Source of the DNA: Oscillatoriales cyanobacterium
GTDB taxonomy: Bacteria; Cyanobacteriota; Cyanobacteriia; Cyanobacteriales; Microcoleaceae
NCBI GenBank assembly: GCA_004292955.1
Contig: RDXX01000009.1
Location: 248,001-312,000 of the forward strand
Reading direction: 5' to 3'
Length of the DNA stretch: 64,000 bases
Below are positions 5,276 through 57,168 of this stretch, piece by piece. Every line of letters starts with the position of its first letter. The stretch's first letter is position 1. Both the position numbers and the translations under genes were made by a program. The notes under the pieces were generated by a model that was not told the DNA's origin, searched no databases, and saw nothing but the letters and a program-made list of their open reading frames with translations.

Positions 5276-6709
5276 ATGAAAACAGACAGTAAAATCTCAG
5301 CTAAAAAATCCTGGGCCAAATCTTTAGCCCGTCCTGCTGCGGAGTTTCCGTTGACTCAGCTATCGGTTAAAACTGGTAAAATTCCCGACGGATTGCGCGG
5401 CACTCTCTACCGCAACGGGCCCGCACGTTTGGAACGCGGCGGTGTTGCTGCGGGACACTGGTTTGATGGCGACGGTGCAATTTTGGCAGTACATTTTACT
5501 GATGTCGGTGCTGCTGCTGTTTATCGCTACGTGCAAACAGCGGGATATCTAGCTGAAGAAAAAGCCGATCGATTTCTCTACAGTAATTACGGCATGACAG
5601 CGCCGGGCCCTGTGTGGTTGCGGTGGACGAAAACAGTTAAAAATGCTGCGAATACTTCTGTTTTAGCTTTGCCCGATCGCCTTTTGGCACTATGGGAAGG
5701 TGGGCCGCCTCATAGCCTTGATTTACAAACCCTAGAAACTCTGGGAACGGACGATTTAGGCAATTTAGATAAGGAATTTAGTTATTCCGCTCACTGCAAG
5801 TGCGATCCGATTACTGGGAATATTTTTAATTTTGGAATTACACCGGGTCTGAGTCCAAAATTGAATGTGTATAAAAGCGATTTTACTGGCAAAGTCGTAC
5901 AAAAATCAACTGTTTCTTTAGATGGAATTTCCCCGATCCACGATTTTGTGTTTGCGGGAAAGTATTTGATATTTTTTATTCCGCCGGTGCAAGTCAATTT
6001 GTTGCCATTGTTAGCGGGAATTAGCAGTTATAGCGAGTCCTTTAAGTGGAAACCGGAATTAGGAACGCAGATATTAGTTTTTGAATCGGAAACTCTGTCT
6101 TTAGTTAGTCGCGGCGAAACCGATGCTTGGTTTCAGTGGCATTTTGCTAACGGTTTTGTCAAGGAAGATGGTTCGGTGGCGGTAGATTTTGTGCGCTTTG
6201 CTGATTTTACAACTAATCAGCGACTGAAAGAAGTAGCGACTGGTGAAACTCACACCGATGCGGAGGGTATTCTTTGCCGAGTGCATCTCAATCCTTTGAC
6301 AGGGAAAGTGACAGGAATAGAAGAATTGTTGGATAAACCTTGTGAGTTTCCGGTTGTACCTGCTTCAGAAGTAGGACAAGACTCGCGGTATATTTATCTG
6401 GCAATGTATCGGCCTGATGTTGATATTGTAGCGGAACGTTACGGCGCGATCGCCCGTTTGGACACGCAAACCCGCAATCTCACAATTGCCGACTGCGGCG
6501 AAAATCGCTATCCCGCAGAACCCATCTACGTTCCAGATATTTCATCGGAGAAAGGTTGGATTTTGACAGTTATTTACGACGGCAATTCTGATAGCAGCGA
6601 AGTGTGGATATATGAGTGCGACGGACTTTCGCGCCCGCCTGTTTGTCAGCTAGAATTGCCTGGTGTCATACCTTTGGGCTTTCACGGTACTTGGAAATCG
6701 ACCGTCTGA
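5276..6709 (+). CDS. Carotenoid cleavage oxygenase
   Basis: Fe(II)-dependent dioxygenase of the RPE65/CCD/apocarotenoid-oxygenase family, cleaving a double bond of (apo)carotenoids; the cyanobacterial Diox1/ACO group makes retinal. The 477 aa length and the N-terminal GLRGTLYRNGPARL and HWFDGDGAI motifs are diagnostic. The seven-bladed propeller iron histidines fit SYSAHCKCDP (first), ISPIHDFVF (second), WQFHFANGF-like QWHFANGF (third) and the C-terminal GFHGTW (fourth). Cleavage site and substrate are not readable. ATG 5276 is preferred to an upstream TTG at 5228. Divergent from the LD-carboxypeptidase gene; stop at 6709 is followed by more than 550 bp of repeat-containing DNA. Confidence 0.93.
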   Translation: MKTDSKISAKKSWAKSLARPAAEFPLTQLSVKTGKIPDGLRGTLYRNGPARLERGGVAAGHWFDGDGAILAVHFTDVGAAAVYRYVQTAGYLAEEKADRFLYSNYGMTAPGPVWLRWTKTVKNAANTSVLALPDRLLALWEGGPPHSLDLQTLETLGTDDLGNLDKEFSYSAHCKCDPITGNIFNFGITPGLSPKLNVYKSDFTGKVVQKSTVSLDGISPIHDFVFAGKYLIFFIPPVQVNLLPLLAGISSYSESFKWKPELGTQILVFESETLSLVSRGETDAWFQWHFANGFVKEDGSVAVDFVRFADFTTNQRLKEVATGETHTDAEGILCRVHLNPLTGKVTGIEELLDKPCEFPVVPASEVGQDSRYIYLAMYRPDVDIVAERYGAIARLDTQTRNLTIADCGENRYPAEPIYVPDISSEKGWILTVIYDGNSDSSEVWIYECDGLSRPPVCQLELPGVIPLGFHGTWKSTV

Positions 6710-7268
6710 GAAGATTGTAAAGAAGTGTTGCGGAAGATTTATTAAAAATTGTTGCAGCTTTGAGGTGGAGTTGTTAACGTGTGTGTAGATAGGAGATTCT
6801 CATATCTAGGAGGTTTCATCAGTTGACAGTTGACAGTTGACAGTTGACAGCTACCTATAGCCGTCGATAGAAGAGGATTGGAGCAATGAATCATTTTGTT
6901 TGATTTTCCCCTAAATGGGGAAGCTTCAGACCCAATTTTAAGGTATGGAATTTATGCTCTGTATTGCTCAAAAATCCCGGCGAAGGTCATTCGCGACTAC
7001 ACAAACAAAGTCTGCCTTCGCAGACTAAAGAAAGAGGGAAATTAAGCCAAAGTCGGTATGATTTTCCACCTGGTTTTCCCATCTCAGGTTTGTCTGCTTG
7101 AATGAGGTTGAGTAGCCAGATTTACAACCAATTTCTGGCAAACCAAAAGTTTAGTTCAACTCACGCGCCCGTTGGCGATTCAAAAGTTTTGAGTTAACTC
7201 CACAAAATTCATAACTCGCAACTTATAACTTCGCGCGCGGTGAGTATCAAAATCAGAGGGTTTTATCT
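6710..7268. other. Intergenic region with repeats
   Basis: No convincing gene. It holds a heptamer tandem array (CAGTTGA units, about 6822-6853), a fragment of the dispersed GTCTACACAAAC/TCCGC repeat near 6990-7027 (GCGACTACACAAACAAAGTC...GCAGACTAAAG), and A/T-rich DNA before the SDR gene with GAGGG about 8 nt upstream of its ATG. Confidence 0.6.
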
Positions 7269-21752: not shown

Positions 21753-22687
21753 AATTATCTTAAGGTAGCTTATGCGATCGACTATAGCAGTGCTAAATGA
21801 GTCGTAAAGTTTTTTACCCCACCCCAACCCTCCCCTTATTAAGGGGAGGGAGTAAGAAATTTACAAATGATTTAGGATTGCTATATAACTTTTAACCTAT
21901 GTCGGTCGATCGCACTTTGGGAATTAGCAAACAACGATCGCGATCGCACCTGCAAATCTTTCAGCAGCATGGTGACGCCAGATAGAGCGACTTTTGGACG
22001 ATCGGCAAAATTTACTGCAAGCTAGACTAGAGTTGTAATGGTCGTTCTCGATCGACAATTTACAACAACTCATCAAAAAACATTCATCCAGCAAAGTCCG
22101 GGAATTCCCGTTGGAGCTTGTGCTGGTTGTTCCCTTCGTGTTACTACTGAGTTACGAAACTTCCGCATATCCTCGGCGAGGAACTAAGCTTTTCCCAAGT
22201 CTGAGCAATTGCTGCATTCCTATCCGCTGTTTCCGTTAAACTTTGGTCAGGAACCCAACTCTAAAGAGATTGGGCTTGCAAGAGAAATCAAGTAAGCCAT
22301 TCTGACCAGCCTAAGTCTTCACTGACTACGTTATTTGGGTCACGACACCCTGTGGATGCGACGCCAGTCTCCTGCTCTGTCGCTAGTGGTTAAACAGTTT
22401 TAAGGTCACTGAAACAGTGCTGCTAGCCCAACAAGCCCTTATAACATTGGCGAGGCGAACATTACCCCGCAAGGGAGGCTCCACAAGAGCAAACATTATG
22501 CGTACAGGGTTGCAAGGTTTGAAACGGTAACTGTCCCGTTGAAAGTGCATTACAAAAGTACACCAAACCAAGCAACTCCAAGGCGGTAATGGCAAGAAAG
22601 ATTCAAGGCGGTTGAAACCGCCCGGGTTGTTTCCCTCTCAGGTCTAAAGACTCTGAGTTTCTCACTTACCGAATAGTTTGATGATTT
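21753..22687. ncRNA. Long non-coding region with structured sequence, possible IS605/TnpB-type remnant
   Basis: No convincing gene in 935 bp. 21820-21856 is the C/T-rich palindrome family (CCTCCCCTTATTAAGGGGAG). From about 22050 to 22620 the base composition and short stems look like structured RNA rather than decayed coding DNA. On the minus strand near 22250-22282 there is AAGCCCAATCTCTTTAGAG followed by TTGGG, a hairpin preceded by AAG, which resembles the 3' end of TnpB-associated guide RNAs. Towards the right are CAAGGCGGTTGAAACCGCC (a hairpin shared with the 54-bp repeat family) and the 42-nt leader repeat 22631-22672. The interpretation as a transposon remnant is a guess. Confidence 0.3.
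22631..22672 (+). repeat. 42-nt hairpin leader repeat, copy upstream of 2OG oxygenase
   Basis: TTCCCTCTCAGGTCTAAAGA followed by CTCTGAGTTT and CTCACTTACCGA; CTCAGGTC/GACTCTGAG forms a hairpin with loop TAAA at 22637-22657. The same 42 nt, with one or two changes, lies at 48553-48594 immediately upstream of gnd. Confidence 0.8.
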
Positions 22688-50448: not shown

Positions 50449-50919
50449 ATGAAACCTTTTCTAGTAAGAGCCGCTGCCATTATCGGTGATATTGCAGCAT
50501 TGGTATTTGATACAATTAAAGAAGAAGAATCAAAAAAACTTTTATCAGACAGCGGTATTCTCGAAGTGGATGCAATGACTGGCAAAGAGTTTGAAAAATT
50601 TCTAGCTGTCCATTTTAGAAACTGTGGTTATAGCGTCACTTTAACTCAAGACAGTCAAGATTATGGAGCAGATTTGATTTTGTACAAAGACGGATCGAAA
50701 ACAGTAGTTCAAGCAAAAAGAAGCAAAAATCCAGTTGGGATTAAAGCAGTTCAAGAAGTAGCAGGAGCCGTCAGACATTACAACGGAAATAAAGGCAGAG
50801 TCATCACCAACAACAGATTTACAGAAAATGCTTGCAAACTTGCCAAATCTAACGACGTAGAGTTATGGGATAGAAAAAAACTCATCGAATTCATCCTGAC
50901 AGCTAAGAATTATCAATAA
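50449..50919 (+). CDS. Restriction endonuclease-like (Mrr_cat) protein
   Basis: 156 aa single-domain PD-(D/E)xK nuclease-like protein. After a hydrophobic N-terminus (VRAAAIIGDIAALVF, possible membrane contact) comes MTGKEFEKFLAVHFRNCGYSVTLTQDSQDYGADLIL, then TVVQAKRSKNPVGIKAVQEVAGAVRHY; this gives the catalytic set E...D(YGAD)...QxK of Mrr-type type IV restriction enzymes. The end GRVITNNRFTENACKLAKSNDVELWDRKKLIEFI is also family-typical. Such proteins are thought to cut modified DNA or act on topologically closed DNA; target unknown. 3 bp separate it from arfB downstream, so they share a transcript. Confidence 0.88.
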   Translation: MKPFLVRAAAIIGDIAALVFDTIKEEESKKLLSDSGILEVDAMTGKEFEKFLAVHFRNCGYSVTLTQDSQDYGADLILYKDGSKTVVQAKRSKNPVGIKAVQEVAGAVRHYNGNKGRVITNNRFTENACKLAKSNDVELWDRKKLIEFILTAKNYQ

Positions 50920-50922
50920 ATC

Positions 50923-51336
50923 ATGTTACAAATCTCTAATACAGTGTTTATTCCAGATGCCGAAATTGAACTTACTGCCATTCGCTCCCAAGGCGCGGGC
51001 GGACAAAATGTAAATAAGGTGGCGAGTGCTATTCACCTGCGCTTTGATATCCCAGCTTCTTCATTACCCGATCGCTACAAAGAGCGTTTATTGCAACTCA
51101 ACGATGGGCGAATCACCTCCGAAGGTGTGATTATCATCAAAGCACAGGAGCACCGCAGCCAGGAACAAAACCGCGAGGAGGCTTTGAGGCGGCTGCAAGA
51201 ATTGATCAAAAGTGCGATCGTCATCCCGAAAAGGCGCAAACCCAGCAAAGCGACTCGTAGTTCCCAGCGCAAGCGTCTTGACAGCAAAACCAAGCGGGGG
51301 CAGATTAAGGCTCTGAGAGGGAAAATTACCGATTAA
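50923..51336 (+). CDS. arfB: Ribosome-rescue peptidyl-tRNA hydrolase ArfB
   Basis: 137 aa release-factor-like protein hydrolysing peptidyl-tRNA on ribosomes stalled without a stop codon. The GGQ loop is AIRSQGAGGQNVNKVASAIHLRFDI, and the basic C-terminal tail (KRRKPSKATRSSQRKRLDSKTKRGQIKALRGK) that probes the mRNA channel is present. No codon-recognition domain. Length matches ArfB/YaeJ. ATG 50923 lies 3 nt after the stop of the Mrr-like gene. Confidence 0.93.
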   Translation: MLQISNTVFIPDAEIELTAIRSQGAGGQNVNKVASAIHLRFDIPASSLPDRYKERLLQLNDGRITSEGVIIIKAQEHRSQEQNREEALRRLQELIKSAIVIPKRRKPSKATRSSQRKRLDSKTKRGQIKALRGKITD

Positions 51337-51353
51337 GGGATCAAAGGGCTCCC

Positions 51354-51423
51354 AGGTACGTAGTTGCGCTTCAGCGCTCTTTTTGGGATATCGGAAAGAG
51401 CGCTGAAGCGCAACTACGTACCT
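51354..51423. repeat. Dispersed 69-bp inverted repeat, second copy
   Basis: AGGTACGTAGTTGCGCTTCA ... TGAAGCGCAACTACGTACCT; stem of about 27 bp including GCGCTCTTT/AAAGAGCGC. Placed between the convergent arfB and XRE1 genes, where it could terminate both. First copy at 4094-4162. Confidence 0.8.
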
Positions 51424-51442
51424 AAGAATTAACCCCTGCGCG

Positions 51443-52033
51443 TTATTTGTCCGATCGCCCTCGCGATCTACTGGATAAGTCATCGGGAATTTTAGTTACG
51501 TCTAATCCTAAAAGCTCAAACATAGTTTTTAGAGAAACTTGGTATAGGTTAGCCAGTGCAGCCACGTTTTCAACAGTTGGCATAGACTTTCCTGATTCCC
51601 AGTCAGCTTGCATCCGCTCAGAAACGCCGATATGTTGTTTGACTTGAGGGCGGGTTAGCCCAGCTTGTTCTCTGAGAAGCCTTAATGGAGACTTTTCCTT
51701 TTCTTGCGAATTTTCTTCCCTAATACATGAAGCTTGTTTCACTGATTCTGGCTTCTTGACCTCCGTCGAAAGATGAAGTACACTTAATGCTTGTAGGTCA
51801 TCGGGAATTTTGGCTACGTCTAATCCCATACATCTAGCAAGTGTTTTTAGAGGTACGCCTAGCTCCCGCGCCAGAGCAATGACGCGATCGAAGCGAGGAA
51901 TGGCTTCTCCTCGTTCCCAATCACCAATAATGCGAATTCCTACCCCCATTCGACGACTAAGTTCGGGTTGGGTCAAATTTGCACTTTCTCTCAGGTTTTT
52001 CAAGGTTATCGTTTCTCGGTCTTCAGCTTCCAT
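51443..52033 (-). CDS. XRE family regulator with two HTH domains (array member 1)
   Basis: 196 aa protein made of two HTH_3/Xre domains: residues about 10-70 (LKNLRESANLTQPELSRRMGVGIRIIGDWERG) and 113-175 (LRLLREQAGLTRPQVKQHIGVSERMQADWESG). Each domain ends in the same tail (LGLDVAKIPDDL, LGLDVTKIPDDL), so this is an internal duplication. The single-domain proteins downstream on the plus coordinate side share that tail (IDISNIPDD; GLDVSGLVDD). Acts presumably as a repressor. Just upstream of its ATG are TAGCAATTAATTGCTA and TTGCTAGCAA palindromes and a divergent plus-strand promoter (52068-52096). Confidence 0.9.
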   Translation of the reverse strand: MEAEDRETITLKNLRESANLTQPELSRRMGVGIRIIGDWERGEAIPRFDRVIALARELGVPLKTLARCMGLDVAKIPDDLQALSVLHLSTEVKKPESVKQASCIREENSQEKEKSPLRLLREQAGLTRPQVKQHIGVSERMQADWESGKSMPTVENVAALANLYQVSLKTMFELLGLDVTKIPDDLSSRSRGRSDK

Positions 52034-52039
52034 TAACTA

Positions 52040-52100
52040 TAGCAATTAATTGCTAGCAAAATAGTGCTTGACAAAGTTGGTATCTGGCACTAAACTGCTA
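52040..52100 (+). promoter_or_regulatory. Divergent promoter P1 with palindromic operator
   Basis: Operator: perfect 16-bp palindrome TAGCAATTAATTGCTA (52040-52055) overlapping TTGCTAGCAA (52050-52059). Promoter on plus strand: TTGACA (52068-52073), 17 nt, TAAACT (52091-52096), with another half-site TGCTA on the -10 edge. Likely bound by XRE1, whose ATG is 7 bp left of the palindrome. Confidence 0.65.
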
Positions 52101-52111
52101 GTAGATAGGCA

Positions 52112-52345
52112 AAACAAAGGCGGCCTGGCAAGCCTCCTTCGATCAAAATGCAGGTTTGAATAACCGCCTCACTTGTAGTGTCTATCAATTATGCACCTGC
52201 ATAACCCTTAGTATTTTTGGGGCTTGAGTGCATACCTCAAGCTCCTTTCCCTGAACTCCGAGGAGGTGATGCGATGTCAATCGTCGATCGACCTACAACA
52301 CAGCCCAACTCAAAATTGTACCAAAGATTCCGACCATGACTTCCC
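52112..52345 (+). other. Leader module A downstream of P1
   Basis: Repeated block shared with B (52708-52938) and D (53676-53822). In order: GGCGGCCTGGCAAGCC, GTTTGAATAACCGCC, a hairpin GGGGCTTGAG/CTCAAGCTCC (about 52220-52246), a strong Shine-Dalgarno-like GAGGAGGTG, ATG CGA TGT..., GTCGATCGAC, and AACACAGCCCAACTCAAAA then TTGTACCAAA. It would be the 5' end of a transcript from P1 and then run antisense into XRE2. Confidence 0.6.
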
Positions 52346-52353
52346 TGTGCTTG

Positions 52354-52635
52354 TTAGTTGTCCGATCGTGAGGGCGATTTTACCAAAGGGATATCGTCAG
52401 GAATGTTGGAGATATCGATGCGTAGCAATCTAGCGACGGTTTTGGGCGAAAGCTTTAACTCCCTGCATAGGGCGAAAAAATTATCCGCCCGTGGCATTTT
52501 CCGACAATTAACCCAGGAATTCACTGTATTTAGAGAAACTCCTAGGTTTCGGGCTAGTTGTTCCTGCGTAGCTTCAGCCAATTGGATAGCTTCTTGAATA
52601 GTTTCTGGTTTGAGATAGTCTATATCTTGATTCAT
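52354..52635 (-). CDS. XRE family regulator (array member 2)
   Basis: 93 aa single HTH domain: ETIQEAIQLAEATQEQLARNLGVSLNTVNSWVNCRKMPRADNFFALCRELKLSPKTVARLL, followed by the array-typical tail IDISNIPDD. Starts MNQDIDYLK at ATG 52635. Directly before it lies an inverted repeat AACTAAAGTT/AACTTTAGTT that overlaps the divergent plus-strand promoter P2, so auto- and cross-control of the P2 transcript is likely. Small size and lack of an effector domain fit a simple repressor. Confidence 0.85.
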   Translation of the reverse strand: MNQDIDYLKPETIQEAIQLAEATQEQLARNLGVSLNTVNSWVNCRKMPRADNFFALCRELKLSPKTVARLLRIDISNIPDDIPLVKSPSRSDN

Positions 52636-52638
52636 TTA

Positions 52639-52690
52639 AACTAAAGTTATACAACTTTAGTTGACAAATTAGAATTGTCCAACTAAAGTT
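52639..52690 (+). promoter_or_regulatory. Divergent promoter P2 with palindromic operator
   Basis: Operator arms AACTAAAGTT and AACTTTAGTT with a 4-nt spacer (52639-52662). Promoter on plus strand: TTGACA (52661-52666), 17 nt, TAAAGT (52684-52689); the same half-site AACTAAAGTT (52681-52690) covers the -10 box. Half-site differs from those of P1, P3, P4. Confidence 0.7.
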
Positions 52691-52707
52691 GTAAGTGACG
52701 GACATGG

Positions 52708-52938
52708 CAGAAGGTGGTCGGCGAGCCTTCAAGTTCAAAACGTGCAGGTTTTAATAACCGCCTTGCTTGTGCTGTCTATCAATTGTGCTGGCATACAAGA
52801 GCCTATTTTTGGGGTTTGAGTGCATACTTTAAGCCCCTTTCTCTGAACTCCGAGGAGGTGGTGCCATGTAAAAGGTCGATCGACCTTACAACACAGCCCA
52901 ACTCAAAATTGTACCAAAAATCCCGACCAAAACTTCGC
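52708..52938 (+). other. Leader module B downstream of P2
   Basis: About 230 bp closely similar to module A. The hairpin reads GGGGTTTGAG/CTTTAAGCCCC here, keeping pairing (with G-U) despite changes. GAGGAGGTG is followed by GTG CCA TGT AAA AGG, giving a 29-aa frame with TTQPNSKLYQKSRPK; an ATG in the other frame is followed directly by TAA. AAGGTCGATCGACCTT is a perfect palindrome. Confidence 0.6.
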
Positions 52939-52946
52939 TCTGTTGG

Positions 52947-53219
52947 TTAGCTGTCCCTCGGCGGCACGTAATCATCAACAAGTCCTGACACATCTAGCCC
53001 GATCGAGTGACAGAACTGTTTCAAGCTAATATTTAGGGCTGTACAAATGGCTATTGCAGTATCAACTCTGGGTTTTTGTTTTCTTTTTTCTATGGAATAC
53101 AAAGTATCTTCAGAAACTTTCCCCGTCAGTTGCAGGCTCAGCTCACGGCGACTAAAGCCCCTGTATTCTCTAATTTCCGCAAGGCTCATTTCGTATAAAT
53201 CCCGTACTTCTTGATTCAT
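52947..53219 (-). CDS. XRE family regulator (array member 3)
   Basis: 90 aa from ATG 53219 (MNQEVRDLYEMSLAEIREYRGFSRRELS; compare member 2 MNQD), one HTH domain (FSRRELSLQLTGKVSEDTLYSIEKRKQKPRVDTAIAICTALNISLKQF), tail GLDVSGLVDDYVPP. An in-frame extension to 53252 would overlap the P3 operator and is unlikely. Its ATG is followed by the left arm of an 11-bp inverted repeat that encloses the divergent P3 promoter. Confidence 0.85.
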   Translation of the reverse strand: MNQEVRDLYEMSLAEIREYRGFSRRELSLQLTGKVSEDTLYSIEKRKQKPRVDTAIAICTALNISLKQFCHSIGLDVSGLVDDYVPPRDS

Positions 53220-53231
53220 TGTGCAGAAAAT

Positions 53232-53279
53232 TTCGTAGTTTACGCTTGACAAAGACAGGAAGCCTGACTAAACTACGAA
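53232..53279 (+). promoter_or_regulatory. Divergent promoter P3 enclosed by inverted repeat
   Basis: Arms TTCGTAGTTTA (53232-53242) and TAAACTACGAA (53269-53279), exact complements, 26 nt apart. Plus-strand promoter TTGACA (53246-53251), 17 nt, TAAACT (53269-53274), so the right arm contains the -10 box. Only a short remnant of the leader module follows (53281-53340, with CAACCCAACTCAAAATTGTA). Confidence 0.7.
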
Positions 53280-53356
53280 TAAAGGCATAGCAAGCAGCCG
53301 GCAAGCCTGAAAGCACAACCCAACTCAAAATTGTATCTGTTGGTTTAATTTAATTG

Positions 53357-53599
53357 CTAATTCGGCCCAAAGCTCTCTGGAAGTTCATCTATTTTTTCTA
53401 TTTTTAGTTCTCGGCAAATAGCTTTCAACTGAAAGAGAGAAAATTTTGGTTCTGTGGCTCCAGATATCCATCTATGATATGTGGCCCGCGGAATCCCGCA
53501 TCTAAAAGCAAACTCATCTTGTGATAAGTCTGTTTTGTTGATTCTTAGGGCTTCCAATGGTGAATTGCCCTCCTGTCTTCGTTCTTTTCTTGATGACAT
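53357..53599 (-). CDS. XRE family regulator (array member 4)
   Basis: 80 aa from ATG 53599 (MSSRKERRQEGNSPLEALRINKTDLSQDEFAFRCGIPRATYHRWISGATEPKFSLFQLKAICRELKIEKIDELPESF). HTH_3 domain with recognition helix PRATYHRWISG; the LDVxKIPDD tail of the others is replaced by IEKIDELPES. The most divergent member. It faces promoter P4, which drives the 332-aa gene, and ATCTCA...TGAGAT palindromes lie in between. Confidence 0.83.
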   Translation of the reverse strand: MSSRKERRQEGNSPLEALRINKTDLSQDEFAFRCGIPRATYHRWISGATEPKFSLFQLKAICRELKIEKIDELPESFGPN

Positions 53600-53610
53600 T
53601 GTAACATAAA

Positions 53611-53666
53611 ATCTCAAATTGAGATGTCATACTTGACAAAATTAAATCGACATCTCATAATGAGAC
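53611..53666 (+). promoter_or_regulatory. Divergent promoter P4 with two palindromic operators
   Basis: Operators ATCTCA-AAT-TGAGAT (53611-53625) and ATCTCA-TAA-TGAGAC (53652-53666). Plus-strand promoter TTGACA (53633-53638), 17 nt, CATAAT (53656-53661), so the second operator covers the -10 box exactly. Likely bound by XRE4. Confidence 0.75.
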
Positions 53667-53675
53667 AAAAGCGAC

Positions 53676-53822
53676 ATAACACAAGTCGGTCGGTCAGGCC
53701 GAACAGTCCAAACGTCCAAGTTTGAATAGCCGCCTTGAGGTGATGCGATGTAAAAGGTCGATCGACCTTACAACACAGCCCAACTCAAAATTGTACCAAA
53801 AATCCCGACCAAAAATTCCACT
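53676..53822 (+). other. Leader module D downstream of P4
   Basis: Shortened copy of modules A and B: GTTTGAATAGCCGCCTTGAGG joins the two conserved parts (the hairpin and spacer between them are deleted), followed by TGATGCGATGTAAAAGG, the AAGGTCGATCGACCTT palindrome and ACAACACAGCCCAACTCAAAA. Leads into the 332-aa gene. Confidence 0.6.
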
Positions 53823-53880
53823 TTGCGATCGCCCAACTTCCGTGCTATCGTTCCCTTTCTCGACCCCTTCCCGATCATGA
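53743..53880 (+). CDS. Possible 45-aa leader ORF overlapping the next start
   Basis: ATG 53743 opens MRCKRSIDLTTQPNSKLYQ and ends at TGA 53878-53880, which overlaps the ATG (53877) of the 332-aa gene as ATGA. The N-terminal part is repeat-encoded and has counterparts in modules A and B (MRCQSSIDL; VPCKRSIDLTTQPNSKLYQ). Whether it is translated is unknown; the overlap suggests translational coupling. Confidence 0.35.
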   Translation: MRCKRSIDLTTQPNSKLYQKSRPKIPLCDRPTSVLSFPFSTPSRS

Positions 53881-54875
53881 CCACATCTACCGACAACTTC
53901 TACCTAGGCGATATCGCCTCCAACTTTCACTTCGCAGGCCCGCTGCTAGACTTTGAAGAAGAAATCCAGAATCAATCGCCCTTTCACGATTTAGAGTATC
54001 TGACAGGCGAAATAAAAAGAGGATTCCTCGACTACGTGCGACAAGGGATCATGCTGGACGCGATCCGAAAACTGCGCTTGTACAAAGACAAGTTCAAAAC
54101 TTTCAAAATTTACTGCGAACAAGCCTTAGGCAGACAGTATTTTTATTGCACGCAAATTATCAAATCTGCGGCAATTTGCCTGCGCTTAATAAAAGCCGGA
54201 TTTGAGATTTTGCCTAGCTGCGTCGCTCAAGTTGTCCCCTTGTTCAAACACGCAGTCACAGATCAATACGGCGACTGTGCTTTACAGGAAAAGTGGCAAG
54301 AAGTTGTGGATGTCATCCCCAAAGAAAGGATTACAGCAATAACGATAGCCGAAACAGTTGACAACAATCCCAACCTCAGGTTAAAACAAATTCGGATTAA
54401 AACCGACACCTACGCCCTGTTGACCAAAAAAGCAGCCGCTGCGGGAATGTCAATTTCGGAATTTTTGGGGCGGCTGGTTGACGAATACAACCCCAGAATT
54501 GTAGAGCAGCCGGCGGAACACACTCCCGAACAAGAGGAGATTTTAGACCAATTGGACGCGGAGTTTAAGAAGCCCGCAGCGGAACAGATTTCAAATTCTG
54601 CTCCAGCCAAAGTTAAATCTAAAGGTTTTGGAGTAAAAAATGAGCCAAAAGGTGGTAAAAGGGAGGTGAAGGCGAAAAGTTCGGAAGGTAAAGTAAAAGC
54701 GAAAAGCTCTCCAAGTGAAAATAAGCTGAAAAATAAGCAAACAGAAATTCCAGTCGAGAAACTATCCAATTTATTTCAGGAACAAAATAATGAAGTCATC
54801 TGCCCAAAACCCAATCATGCGTCAACTGAAGCTGATGGAGGCTCAATTGACCCAGATTCAGTGCCAACTGATTAA
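53877..54875 (+). CDS. KilA/DUF3102-like protein with ribbon-helix-helix motif
   Basis: 332 aa from ATG 53877. The N-terminal half (LEYLTGEIKRGFLDYVRQGIMLDAIRKLRLYKDKFKTFKIYCEQALGRQYFYCTQIIKSA...) follows the pattern of DUF3102-type proteins of plasmids and phages (aLxxIrexxLYkxxFxtFxxYcexxlGxsrxyaxqlI). Next comes IRIKTDTYALLTKKAAAAGMSISEFLGRLVDEY, an RHH/CopG-like DNA-binding motif. The last 130 residues are low complexity, Lys/Ser/Glu rich and probably disordered. So I see a DNA-binding, plasmid- or element-like protein, exact role unknown. It is the first full gene downstream of promoter P4 and leader D, and overlaps the next ORF by 86 nt. Confidence 0.75.
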   Translation: MTTSTDNFYLGDIASNFHFAGPLLDFEEEIQNQSPFHDLEYLTGEIKRGFLDYVRQGIMLDAIRKLRLYKDKFKTFKIYCEQALGRQYFYCTQIIKSAAICLRLIKAGFEILPSCVAQVVPLFKHAVTDQYGDCALQEKWQEVVDVIPKERITAITIAETVDNNPNLRLKQIRIKTDTYALLTKKAAAAGMSISEFLGRLVDEYNPRIVEQPAEHTPEQEEILDQLDAEFKKPAAEQISNSAPAKVKSKGFGVKNEPKGGKREVKAKSSEGKVKAKSSPSENKLKNKQTEIPVEKLSNLFQEQNNEVICPKPNHASTEADGGSIDPDSVPTD

Positions 54876-55044
54876 AGCCACTGTGTTGAATTGGTGGCAA
54901 ATCGTTTTGCCTGACGGACAGAAGATTGCGATCGAGCACGCGGGCGGCGGACACTGGATTTTTCGGGCTAACGGCCTTGAAAAATCGCATCCTGAAGTGC
55001 GGCTAGCGGTGTTAAGGGCGATCGCCGAAGGCTGTCGTCGATAA
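54790..55044 (+). CDS. Small hypothetical protein
   Basis: 84 aa (ATG 54790; a second ATG at 54817), overlapping the end of the 332-aa gene in another frame by 86 nt. The sequence LMEAQLTQIQCQLIKATVLNWWQIVLPDGQKIAIEHAGGGHWIFRANGLEKSHPEVRLAVLRAIAEGC looks like a folded small protein rather than a chance frame. Not recognised. The overlap suggests it is translated together with the upstream gene. Confidence 0.55.
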   Translation: MKSSAQNPIMRQLKLMEAQLTQIQCQLIKATVLNWWQIVLPDGQKIAIEHAGGGHWIFRANGLEKSHPEVRLAVLRAIAEGCRR

Positions 55045-55172
55045 GCTACGATTAAGGACACGGCGCTGTGTCGTGTCCCTACTGGGTTATGGGAGTTGTC
55101 ATGATTTGCGGATGTTGGGGCGATACCTTCGGTCTGCTTCGCTTACGACATTAGTATCGAGATTGGTTAAAA
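55045..55172. repeat. Short palindromes and variant of the 29-bp repeat
   Basis: AGGACACGGCGCTGTGTCGTGTCCCT (55053-55079) is a GGGACACGGC-family hairpin. 55119-55147 (GGCGATACCTTCGG then TCTGCTTCGCTTACG) has the ends and the length of the 29-bp intragenic repeat with a different centre. Confidence 0.6.
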
Positions 55173-55295
55173 GTGCGATCGGAATGTCCCAACTGTGGGG
55201 CGAAGTTTAAGATTCCCGCGTTGTGGGCGGATGGCTGGTGTCAAGGAGGTTTTGTGAGGTTTAAAAAGATGGCGGAGTATCAGAAATATTGCTGA
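55173..55295 (+). CDS. Possible 40-aa zinc-ribbon peptide
   Basis: GTG 55173 to TGA 55293-55295: VRSECPNCGAKFKIPALWADGWCQGGFVRF and a short tail. CPNCG plus a downstream Cys could bind zinc, but only three Cys are present in the likely site (a fourth is the last residue). It overlaps the stop of the minus-strand AlbA_2 gene by 35 nt. Could be a real small gene or the stub of a longer one. Confidence 0.3.
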   Translation: MRSECPNCGAKFKIPALWADGWCQGGFVRFKKMAEYQKYC

Positions 55296-57168
55296 TTCCT
55301 TGAGACAATAAAGTTCTGTATGCTTGCTGAGGATGAGTTGGTTCATCAGGATATTTGAGTTCTAGTAATTTTTCTGACAACATTGGATTAATAAAATGAG
55401 TCCTAATTGTTTCAGAACTGCGATTCAATAGTTCAGCTAATCTTTTGACAGTTAAATATCTTTCCGAGCAAAGTTTCAGAATCGTGTTTCTCATCAACTC
55501 TGGACTTGCCCGTTGCTTTTCTCGAACCGGAGCAGCTATTTCTAGTAAAAAGAAATTTTCATCATTATGCACGGAGCTTGACTCATTATGCACGGAGCTT
55601 GAGTAATTATGCACGGAGCTTGACTCGTTATGCACGGAGCTTGGCTCATTATGCACGGAGCTTGGAATCAAGGAAAGTAAATCAGGTTGACTTTTATTTG
55701 GTAGAGCGTACTGAGTTCCGCGACCACGACCAGAGCGCTCTAACCAACCATTATTTACGAATTGCTTGAGACATTCCCCTATATCTCTGGGATGTTCTCG
55801 ACTATAACACTGAATGTCAGCATTGCTAATTTCTCCTGATTGATGTGCCAGTATCAAAATAATCCGCTCTAATTCGGTCAATTCGCAATAGTCATCTCCC
55901 ACAATTTCCCTTAACTCTGTTTCGACATTTTCGGGAATCATGCTCACCATTGGTAAAGCAACCAAAGTCATCTCTAACTCTAATTTCTCTGATACCAAAG
56001 GAAACCATTGCTGCTCTATCCATGCGCGGATCATCTTTCTAAAGCCCGATCCTGCTTTTTCTCCTAAGCCAAGCATTTGAAACATTTTTTGCAAATTAGG
56101 ATTGCGAGGATCGCTAACGCCGCCTTCGTAAAGCTGCTGAATAGAAATTCTCAGACGACCCGGATTGGAAAACGAAAAACCATTTTTATACTTGGTAATT
56201 TTTAAAGGGCGAGTAGATTGATAATCGGCATGAATAAGAGTATTGACCAAAGCCTCTCGCAATGCTTCATGGACATGAGTTTCGCCACGACGTATGGCAT
56301 CTTTGTCGAGTTGGAAAGGAACTTCTAAATCATTAACTACACGAGTATAAACACGATAGTAAAAATTAAACAAGTTAGGTTCCCACTTGCCGTCAAGTGT
56401 TAGTCTGTAAGTCCATCGTGTTTCTGGATCGTCAGAAAGTTGCTCCTGATAATCAAGTTGGTAGTGAGACAGTGCATCTAAAATACTACGTTCGCGACCA
56501 AACATGAGCAAACCAGCAATAGTTAACCCTTCTTGACCCGTGCTGCGATCGCGACTCCATCCCCCTAACTGACGCAACAAATCCGAATCATGTAATGCCA
56601 GCCAAGGATGATCTGGTTCTCTAGAGCTAAACCGTTGACGAAAGGATTTTAATGTTTCTGTATCGATATCACTAAGGTCGAAACCTTCTAAAATTTGGAT
56701 ATCTTGAGGTGCATCACTGGCATCGCGCAACATTTGACGGATTTCAGCATCAGTGCAACGATAATCCCCTTCATAATTGCGTTTATATGTGCCTGTTAAG
56801 GGATTATTGTTAATATAAACTGGTCGCTGTGTCCGAGTCGCTCTTGGCACTTTAATAATGACTAACTTATTAGTTTCAATCTCTAGTTGTTCTAGATCGG
56901 AGTTAAAACAGATAGGAGTGCTGAGTTTTTGCAGATTGTTATGATTGTTCCAAAATTCTTTTAATAGTACACTGGGGTTACGGACACCTGAAATCTCGAA
57001 CCCATTTCGATTTTCCGTGACACCTAGAACAATATAACCACCATCTGTATTGGCAAATGCTGATACTGTTTCCCAACTACTTTTGGGAAAACCACCGTCA
57101 GCAGACTTAAATTCAATGTCTTGGTCTTCTCCAAGGTTTATGCGATCGAGTAATGTTTCTAAATCCAT
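55261..57168 (-). CDS. ATP-binding protein with AlbA_2 (Schlafen-type) domain
   Basis: 635 aa COG2865-type protein. N-terminal AlbA_2 domain: LGEDQDIEFKSADGGFPKSSWETVSAFANTDGGYIVLGV. Next, a GHKL-like ATP-binding part with HEALREALVNTLIHADY and FSFSNPGRLRIS, then RNPNLQKMFQMLGLGEKAGSGFRKM. C-terminal winged-helix regions follow. Between residues about 510 and 545 lies a five-fold heptapeptide repeat SSVHNE(P/S)/SSVHNYS coded by a 21-bp tandem repeat. Proteins of this kind act as regulators, and some occur in phage-defence islands; function here unknown. It is convergent with the XRE/KilA-like cluster. Confidence 0.87.
   Translation of the reverse strand: MDLETLLDRINLGEDQDIEFKSADGGFPKSSWETVSAFANTDGGYIVLGVTENRNGFEISGVRNPSVLLKEFWNNHNNLQKLSTPICFNSDLEQLEIETNKLVIIKVPRATRTQRPVYINNNPLTGTYKRNYEGDYRCTDAEIRQMLRDASDAPQDIQILEGFDLSDIDTETLKSFRQRFSSREPDHPWLALHDSDLLRQLGGWSRDRSTGQEGLTIAGLLMFGRERSILDALSHYQLDYQEQLSDDPETRWTYRLTLDGKWEPNLFNFYYRVYTRVVNDLEVPFQLDKDAIRRGETHVHEALREALVNTLIHADYQSTRPLKITKYKNGFSFSNPGRLRISIQQLYEGGVSDPRNPNLQKMFQMLGLGEKAGSGFRKMIRAWIEQQWFPLVSEKLELEMTLVALPMVSMIPENVETELREIVGDDYCELTELERIILILAHQSGEISNADIQCYSREHPRDIGECLKQFVNNGWLERSGRGRGTQYALPNKSQPDLLSLIPSSVHNEPSSVHNESSSVHNYSSSVHNESSSVHNDENFFLLEIAAPVREKQRASPELMRNTILKLCSERYLTVKRLAELLNRSSETIRTHFINPMLSEKLLELKYPDEPTHPQQAYRTLLSQGISNISDTPPSF
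55560..55667 (-). repeat. 21-bp coding minisatellite (five units)
   Basis: Five tandem units of TTATGCACGGAGCTTGACTC-type sequence, read as S-S-V-H-N-E-S heptapeptides in the AlbA_2 gene. Unit-to-unit changes are few, so the array is young and may vary in length between strains. Confidence 0.9.

Follow-up and report, generated by a model that had tools for sequence, protein, structure and literature searches.

Why would a cyanobacterium keep several unlike repressor genes side by side on its chromosome, each facing a promoter of its own? The question is raised by a tandem array of XRE genes in a filamentous Oscillatoriales cyanobacterium (genome G000; Microcoleaceae, assembly GCA_004292955.1), located at positions 51443-53880 of a 64,000-nucleotide (nt) stretch of contig RDXX01000009.1, which is referred to here as the window. 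We propose, at slightly better than even odds (probability about 0.52), that the array is a strain-variable bank of control modules of the type used by mobile elements, likely captured from them, whose repressors are predicted to keep protecting the cell. The modules match the control-region make-up of elements that carry a DEDD (IS110-type) transposase, and strains of the genus hold different subsets of them in a nearly fixed order.

The array comprises four minus-strand open reading frames (ORFs) for XRE proteins of 196, 93, 90, and 80 amino acids (aa), here called X1 (51443-52033), X2 (52354-52635), X3 (52947-53219), and X4 (53357-53599). All four proteins exceed the Pfam gathering score for HTH_3, and X2 to X4 were also recognized through relatives. 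Each gene faces a plus-strand promoter with an exact TTGACA, 17-nt spacing, and operators of its own: P1 (TTGACA-17-TAAACT, 52068-52096), P2 (TTGACA-17-TAAAGT, 52661-52689), P3 (TTGACA-17-TAAACT, 53246-53274), and P4 (TTGACA-17-CATAAT, 53633-53661). These are the only sites in the entire 64-kilobase (kb) window, on either strand, that combine an exact TTGACA, a spacing of 17, and a match of at least four of six letters in the -10 box, and none of 300 dinucleotide shuffles of positions 51001-55200 reached four such promoters (mean 0.05, maximum 2). An earlier, sequence-only reading of this DNA had reported four minus-strand XRE genes and these four promoters, and both observations hold, as does its statement that the fourth promoter leads to the gene of a 332-aa protein. 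That gene (53877-54875, plus strand), which Pfam and relatives indicate to be RHH/NikA-like, is the fixed end of the array throughout the genus.

The same reading had given every unit a distinct palindromic operator, with some operators lying on the -10 box. Distinctness and position were both borne out by strain comparison, which found the operators of each type to be conserved across strains; the palindromes fared unevenly. P2 is flanked by left operators AACTAAAGTT / AACTTTAGTT (52639-52662), visible in the sequence and in strain comparison, and by AACTAAAGTT over the -10 box (52681-52690), seen from repeats and strain comparison. P3 lies between TTCGTAGTTTAC (53232-53243) and GACTAAACTACGAA over the -10 box (53266-53279), both from strain comparison. 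Inverted pairs across the promoter number 12 of 12 at P2 and 11 of 12 at P3, where random places reach at least 11 in 0.8% of cases, so that these two palindromes are strong; by this measure P1 and P4 reach just 9 of 12, near a background mean of 7.7. The P4 operators, ATCTCAAATTGAGAT (53611-53625) and ATCTCATAATGAGAC over the -10 box (53652-53666), are supported by sequence and strain comparison, and the P4 dyads are plain in the sequence (ATCTCA-N3-TGAGAT and ATCTCA-N3-TGAGAC, the second one letter from perfect). The palindrome first proposed for P1, TAGCAATTAATTGCTA, is not kept in relatives (CAGTTAGTTGCTA and others). Conserved there instead are CTAGCANNNTAGTGC (52053-52067) and GCACTAAACTGCTAG (52087-52101, over the -10 box). 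The left operator, given as CTAGCAAAATAGTGC, is kept in four strains save one letter and recurs in an element, L139; the right one, supported by strain comparison and operator matching, reads GCACTATTCTGCTAG in one of the four strains.

X1 carries two HTH domains (HTH-a, residues 11-63; HTH-b, residues 117-167), and thus the four genes encode five. The second half of X1 matches stand-alone proteins in genomes G016, G021, G028, and G005 at 90-92%, and a former b-module promoter/operator can still be read as a fossil in the coding linker (51701-51797, plus strand; about 97 nt, aligned to the b-module promoter of locus L036), where the promoter scan detects a weak TTGACC-17-TACACT. X1 therefore combines an a-type and a b-type repressor in one fused protein.

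Downstream of the promoters lie conserved plus-strand leader segments, complete in units 1 (52103-52190) and 2 (52696-52783) and partly deleted in units 3 and 4. In the two complete units an end-to-end 5' hairpin is followed by a terminator-like hairpin recognized from sequence (52219-52245 in leader 1, with GGGGCTTGAG..CTCAAGCTCC then TTTCCC; 52811-52837 in leader 2). A further shared plus-strand segment, the C-block, stands immediately ahead of the RHH gene in the window (53737-53818), as it does in other strains, and is copied at 96% identity at 52855-52936; repeat analysis finds a degenerate leader/C-block remnant in unit 3 (53306-53335). We folded 41 leaders and chose 35 (25 from arrays, 9 from elements, and 1 solo). 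All 35 form one long end-to-end hairpin directly after the promoter with at least 13 end-joining pairs, a number reached by 249 of 1,400 shuffled leaders, and for 30 of them at most one of 100 shuffles was equally stable (z -5.6 for leader 1). The leaders dropped were L041, L045, and L191, which lack this long hairpin, L203 and L202, which have it, and L204; window units 3 and 4, X3 and X4 of L032, B of L035, L087, and L090 were outside the folding set. The hairpin is common to array, solo, and element modules, and its stem letters vary between genera. No Rfam family matches the leaders at E<=1, and the one weak match falls inside the RHH gene. Our guess is that the leader hairpin might attenuate the early operon. 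It is possible that, as had been suggested, three of the plus-strand transcripts run antisense into the next XRE gene, but of 26 array leaders 18 continue into a terminator-like hairpin, whose place is shared by 16.

How widespread are such modules? A 281-nt leader query found matches in 16 of the 59 genomes searched, every one from the window's genus. We mapped the window and 15 loci, then 17 further loci, five of them RHH loci, and named the module types A, B, X1 (the a+b fusion), b, X2, X3, and X4. At 75% identity or more, the RHH gene occurs in 21 of 29 genus genomes, and the search of related genomes that the sequence-only reading had proposed places modules, one to six of them, ahead of 17 of these 21 genes. 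For example, the array of G004 reads A-B-X1-X2-X3-X4 and that of the window X1-X2-X3-X4, and other strains hold subsets. Of 10 multi-module arrays, 9 keep the order A-B-X1(b)-X2-X3-X4, counting b at the X1 position; the exception is L033, with X4 ahead of X2. At the opposite flank, a release-factor-like gene is found in 12 of 16 maps and an Mrr-like nuclease gene in 10 of 16. Internal modules often retain the C-block, a feature weighed as a possible sign of the direction in which arrays grow. C-block similarity was tried as a sign of recent duplication with a mixed outcome: two within-strain pairs are near-identical (0.97 and 0.96), yet the within-strain mean (0.80, 5 pairs) is lower than the between-strain mean (0.85, 86 pairs). 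A reading of the C-block as a short ORF was dropped, as reading frames differ between units.

The likely source of the modules is indicated by their relatives. Two copies in G018 (L145 and L077) define an element of about 19 kb. At one end it carries a DEDD_Tnp_IS110 transposase, and it also has an early operon, a small tyrosine integrase, a gene resembling those for tail fibres, and a weak match to Tlde1. A pirin-like gene is split by one of the copies (the names pirin and HU were read from sequence, not from a profile scan). A genome scan for the transposase recovered 64 loci in Nostoc, Anabaena, Calothrix, Crocosphaera, Microcoleus, and others. Both findings point to mobility of the elements. 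Together with 11 from the genus, 75 element loci were examined, and an XRE gene occupies the control position at 14, the remainder being cut short, having another repressor, or not resolved. Where it is seen, the element repressor stands opposite a TTGAC promoter flanked by operators, and the array layout is that of element relatives such as L139, L168, and L081. At two loci (L077, 3075-3275; L083, 3277-3474) a small ORF that reads as an RHH (CopG-like) repressor replaces the XRE gene beside an operator-flanked TTGACA promoter.

Repressors of DEDD elements from the window's and other genera are 56-77% identical to A, B, X1a, and X4: L168 (71%) and L179 (72%) to B, L082 (67%) and L201 (63%) to A, L139 (77%) and L163 (57%) to X1a, and L203 (61%), L171 (57%), and L169 (56%) to X4. 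More distant are the repressors of L081 (45% to X1a, 42% to X2), L202 (35% to X2), and L162, L204, and L191 (39-41% to X4 or A); none of the 14 has X3 as its best match. Array types are 26-45% identical to one another where BLAST aligns them, with the exception of B and X1b (78%). Array and element repressors interleave in a 35-row tree with at least five forced label changes, and a single origin of A, B, X1a, and X4 relative to eight element repressors was rejected by the approximately unbiased (AU) test (p-AU 2.4e-5) for a group picked after the similarity searches had been seen.

These comparisons bear on the suggestion, made from the sequence, that the units are duplicated modules with separate specificities. 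The repeated layout and the differing operators stand; divergence of local duplicates in place is not supported, because A, B, X1a, and X4 are less similar to each other than to element repressors and one origin of these four is rejected. An explanation in which one module was duplicated locally and the copies then diverged in specificity, perhaps with neighbours coupled in antisense, could draw on the shared leaders and C-blocks and on B and b, whose 78% identity and related operators make at least one pair fit it. It might also draw on X2 and X3, which lack close element relatives and for which the question is open. However, with A, B, X1a, and X4 nearer to element repressors, we regard it as very improbable for the array as a whole.

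Operators were compared as well. In 8 of 12 element or solo modules the cognate array operator ranked first (L168, where it tied with the sister type b, L179, L139, L201, L280, L171, L203, and L202), and this was so for 7 of the 9 with a clear protein type. The operator of L139 agrees with that of X1 at 26 of 28 positions (99.9% null, 21); the scores of L171, L203, and L202 are 18-19, near the 99% null of 18, with L171 and L203 at chance level (18).

Several observations weigh against capture and continued protection. X2 has no relative above 47% outside arrays, and X3 none above 35% in searches of the genus only. Four modules (L163, L082, L081, and L162) fail the operator match, L139 is the sole genus element found with a near-identical operator, the element relatives of B and X4 are located in other genera, and the X1 and X2 operator patterns gave no match in viral contigs. 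RNAalifold recovered just four pairs from a MAFFT alignment of mixed leaders; this alignment is not structure-aware, and single-sequence folds with shuffles were therefore used instead. No module precedes 4 of the 21 RHH genes (G009, G017, G023, and G027). Some modules are decaying: X4 of L032 lacks TTGACA, X2 of L033 reads TTGGCA, A of L036 has TTGACT and a shortened spacer, and L035 contains a truncated B unit. A stack outside the genus (G123, below) likewise has one truncated gene among its four and one promoter that reads GTGACA. Finally, the comparison that could reveal exclusion of elements is limited to the two genus genomes found to have elements with array-like XRE repressors, because eight of nine further element stretches break off where their contig ends. 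G005 holds an a-type element and an array lacking a, and G013 holds A-type and X1a/X2-like elements and no array. Both agree with exclusion, but two genomes prove nothing.

Are the modules then relics? Repeated insertion of elements at one spot could have left a graveyard of inert control regions, and the truncated units (the leaders of units 3 and 4, B of L035), the truncated gene of the second stack, the X1 fusion with its fossil promoter, and the modules without TTGACA are what such an account would lead one to expect. We nevertheless consider it improbable. The ratio of nonsynonymous to synonymous substitution rates (dN/dS) is far below 1 in all six types tested: A 0.09 (n=9), B 0.19 (n=4), X1 0.31 (n=3), X2 0.22 (n=5), X3 0.09 (n=3), and X4 0.11 (n=4); the A-type value draws on 9 of 13 genes and the X1-type value on 3 of 4. 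These values (0.09-0.31) indicate that the array XRE genes are under purifying selection. In addition, in six of seven types invariant positions are more frequent in the operator blocks beside and within the promoter than in the initial 14 nt of the spacer; in the seventh, X4, almost everything is invariant. The recognition-helix comparison proposed with the sequence-only reading was also informative: eight A-type promoters with ACAAG/CTTGT pair with AISN and four with ACAAC/GTTGT pair with AISK, so that helix and operator agree in all 12 readable modules of 13 A-type (the thirteenth, L091, was masked), the variable residue presumably lying in the recognition helix. Conserved operators beside a drifting spacer and covariation of helix and operator are not expected of relics, and the covariation suggests that each XRE would bind its own operators.

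Repressor stacks are not confined to the RHH locus. G014 contains a solo module (L280, 7363-8071) with two tandem A-type XRE genes (69%), an operator, a leader, and a terminator-like hairpin; it precedes an 875-aa ORF that, read from its sequence, resembles glycogen phosphorylase, and no match to RHH or transposase was found in G014. In another family of the order, G123 (L292) and G206 (L293) have four and three tandem XRE genes, respectively, at an unrelated site. The stacks include an a-type gene (73% to X1a) and adjoin host-like genes, with no RHH gene beside them. Two neighbouring repressor genes in G123 overlap and therefore likely share one promoter. In these stacks it is mainly the repressors that persist, an argument that the proteins themselves have a role. 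Separately, locus L143 of G008 (5936-6792) shows two tandem X4/A-like XRE genes followed by a small ORF that reads as CopG-like.

The RHH gene invites a different explanation, in which the array is a switch that changes the repressor/promoter pair driving RHH and the upstream modules are spare or spent. RHH is indeed the constant downstream gene, adjoined by six module types across 17 genomes (A in 6, X2, X4, and b in 3 each, X3 and X1 in 1 each), and the leaders and C-blocks would supply the homology for deletion. On the other hand, RHH-distant repressors are under purifying selection (A and B, at the values given above; some A genes are RHH-proximal), the G123/G206 stack and the G014 solo pair have no adjoining RHH gene, and four RHH loci have no module at all. 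We thus hold promoter swapping to be unlikely, though more probable than the other alternatives.

Under the reading that we prefer, a bank of captured modules, the steps would be as follows. Modules would have been captured from DEDD (IS110-type) transposase elements of cyanobacteria, with each XRE binding its own operators and silencing its own plus-strand promoter, and would enter and leave through recombination between the shared leader and C-block stretches. A stacked repressor might then bind the matching early-promoter operators of a like element arriving later and shut its early operon, a form of superinfection immunity, so that the stack would be a heritable, repressor-coded record of past elements. 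As a side effect the RHH gene, itself related to an early gene of the elements, may be controlled by whichever captured promoter stands last. Protection of the cell is predicted by analogy with phage immunity: the cloned repressor gene of Cluster A mycobacteriophages, together with its upstream region, brings about most of the immunity of a lysogen (PMC6550527). More tentatively, and with more doubt than confidence, we suggest a bacterial immune memory that is heritable and protein-coded, and that may have arisen at least twice in cyanobacteria. Each entry would be the captured repressor/operator module of a single element type, would repress whatever later element has those operators, and would be gained and lost like a spacer.

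The modules could instead act as a tripwire, with incoming operators titrating the repressor so that an array promoter switches on, with the RHH protein or a leader RNA as effector. The last module faces RHH in strains with modules, the leaders have conserved hairpins, and genes for an Mrr-like nuclease and an SLFN/AlbA_2 protein adjoin the locus in the window. RHH is reached directly by the last module alone, however, and stacks without RHH exist, so that we judge such an alarm quite improbable.

As for the RHH protein itself, its earlier DUF3102 label was not upheld, as none of 24 family members matches that Pfam family at E<=0.5. The RHH/NikA-like region matches in all 24, the window protein scoring under the gathering cut-off. 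Shorter paralogs occur elsewhere in the genus, the longer ones 46-53% identical, and paralogs of about 270 aa occur in elements. The AlphaFold model was poor (mean pLDDT 50), and no PDB match was found at E<=0.001; no paralog was found in phage and plasmid records, nor in viral contigs by two relatives searches. An 84-aa ORF overlapping the RHH gene (54790-55044, plus strand), found in the ORF list and on the maps, follows RHH in 15 of 16 maps (the window and 15 loci; the exception is L045) and was not found in the five RHH loci L087-L091.

The array was also searched for other functions. Seven small plus-strand ORFs within the XRE genes or in the gaps between them match no Pfam family at E<=0.01; a small toxin of an unfamiliar kind may be among them. 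In a toxin-antitoxin check, the XRE proteins matched HTH families and some antitoxin models below cut-off, and PADLOC matches on them resemble generic HTH matches. In the neighbourhood of the array, a 156-aa Mrr-like nuclease gene lies at 50449-50919, and an inverted repeat of two perfect 29-nt arms around a 12-nt loop (51354-51423) separates the release-factor-like gene from X1. On the far side, 55261-57168 encodes a 635-aa SLFN/AlbA_2 protein with SSVHN-type repeats and a PADLOC match to a pAgo model (E 1.7e-16). Elsewhere in the window there is a HEARO RNA (22246-22465; RF02033, 156 bits).

How does the array compare with known systems? CRISPR arrays are strain-variable, ordered, record-like stacks at a fixed locus, and the array resembles them in this respect by analogy only. 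Unlike CRISPR, its units are genes for repressors rather than spacers; adaptation genes were not seen, and no cas match was found among eight neighbouring proteins scanned. Immunity by a repressor usually belongs to a prophage or plasmid that resides in the cell. To our knowledge, Qin-type cryptic prophage repressor loci are not a stack of several specificities. The Escherichia coli Qin locus (see PMC10448788) is like the array in that a leftover repressor/operator unit is retained in the chromosome. As in an immunity region, each array repressor gene is divergent from a promoter with operators on it. Temperate-phage immunity (lambda and 434 CI; Cluster A Rep, PMC6550527) shares with the array a small repressor, cognate operators at an early promoter, and heteroimmune relatives. 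Unlike phage immunity, the array sets several unlike modules side by side at one chromosomal site, in strain-variable sets and with no remaining element, and the immunity is what we infer here. IS110-family elements (see PMC11208160 and PMC11187229) share the DEDD_Tnp_IS110 domain with the transposase of the donor-type elements; unlike that family, the G018 elements span about 19 kb and include an early operon, a tyrosine integrase, and tail-fibre-like genes. No transposase is present in the array, and no match to the element transposase was found in G000 (the RNA end was not looked for); nor does the array control mobile-element early genes, its constant downstream gene being RHH. A described stack of this kind was not found in the open-licence full-text literature, a scope outside which most subscription journals and preprints fall.

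If the proposal is true, a set of unlike immunity modules stacked on the chromosome and maintained in the absence of their elements would be a defence whose memory is held as DNA-binding specificities. The paired repressor/operator variants (A-type AISN and AISK, B and b) would form a natural series for reading the HTH recognition code. Moreover, the proposal would tie the content of an array to the elements that a strain carries, a link open to testing in a genus for which many genomes exist.

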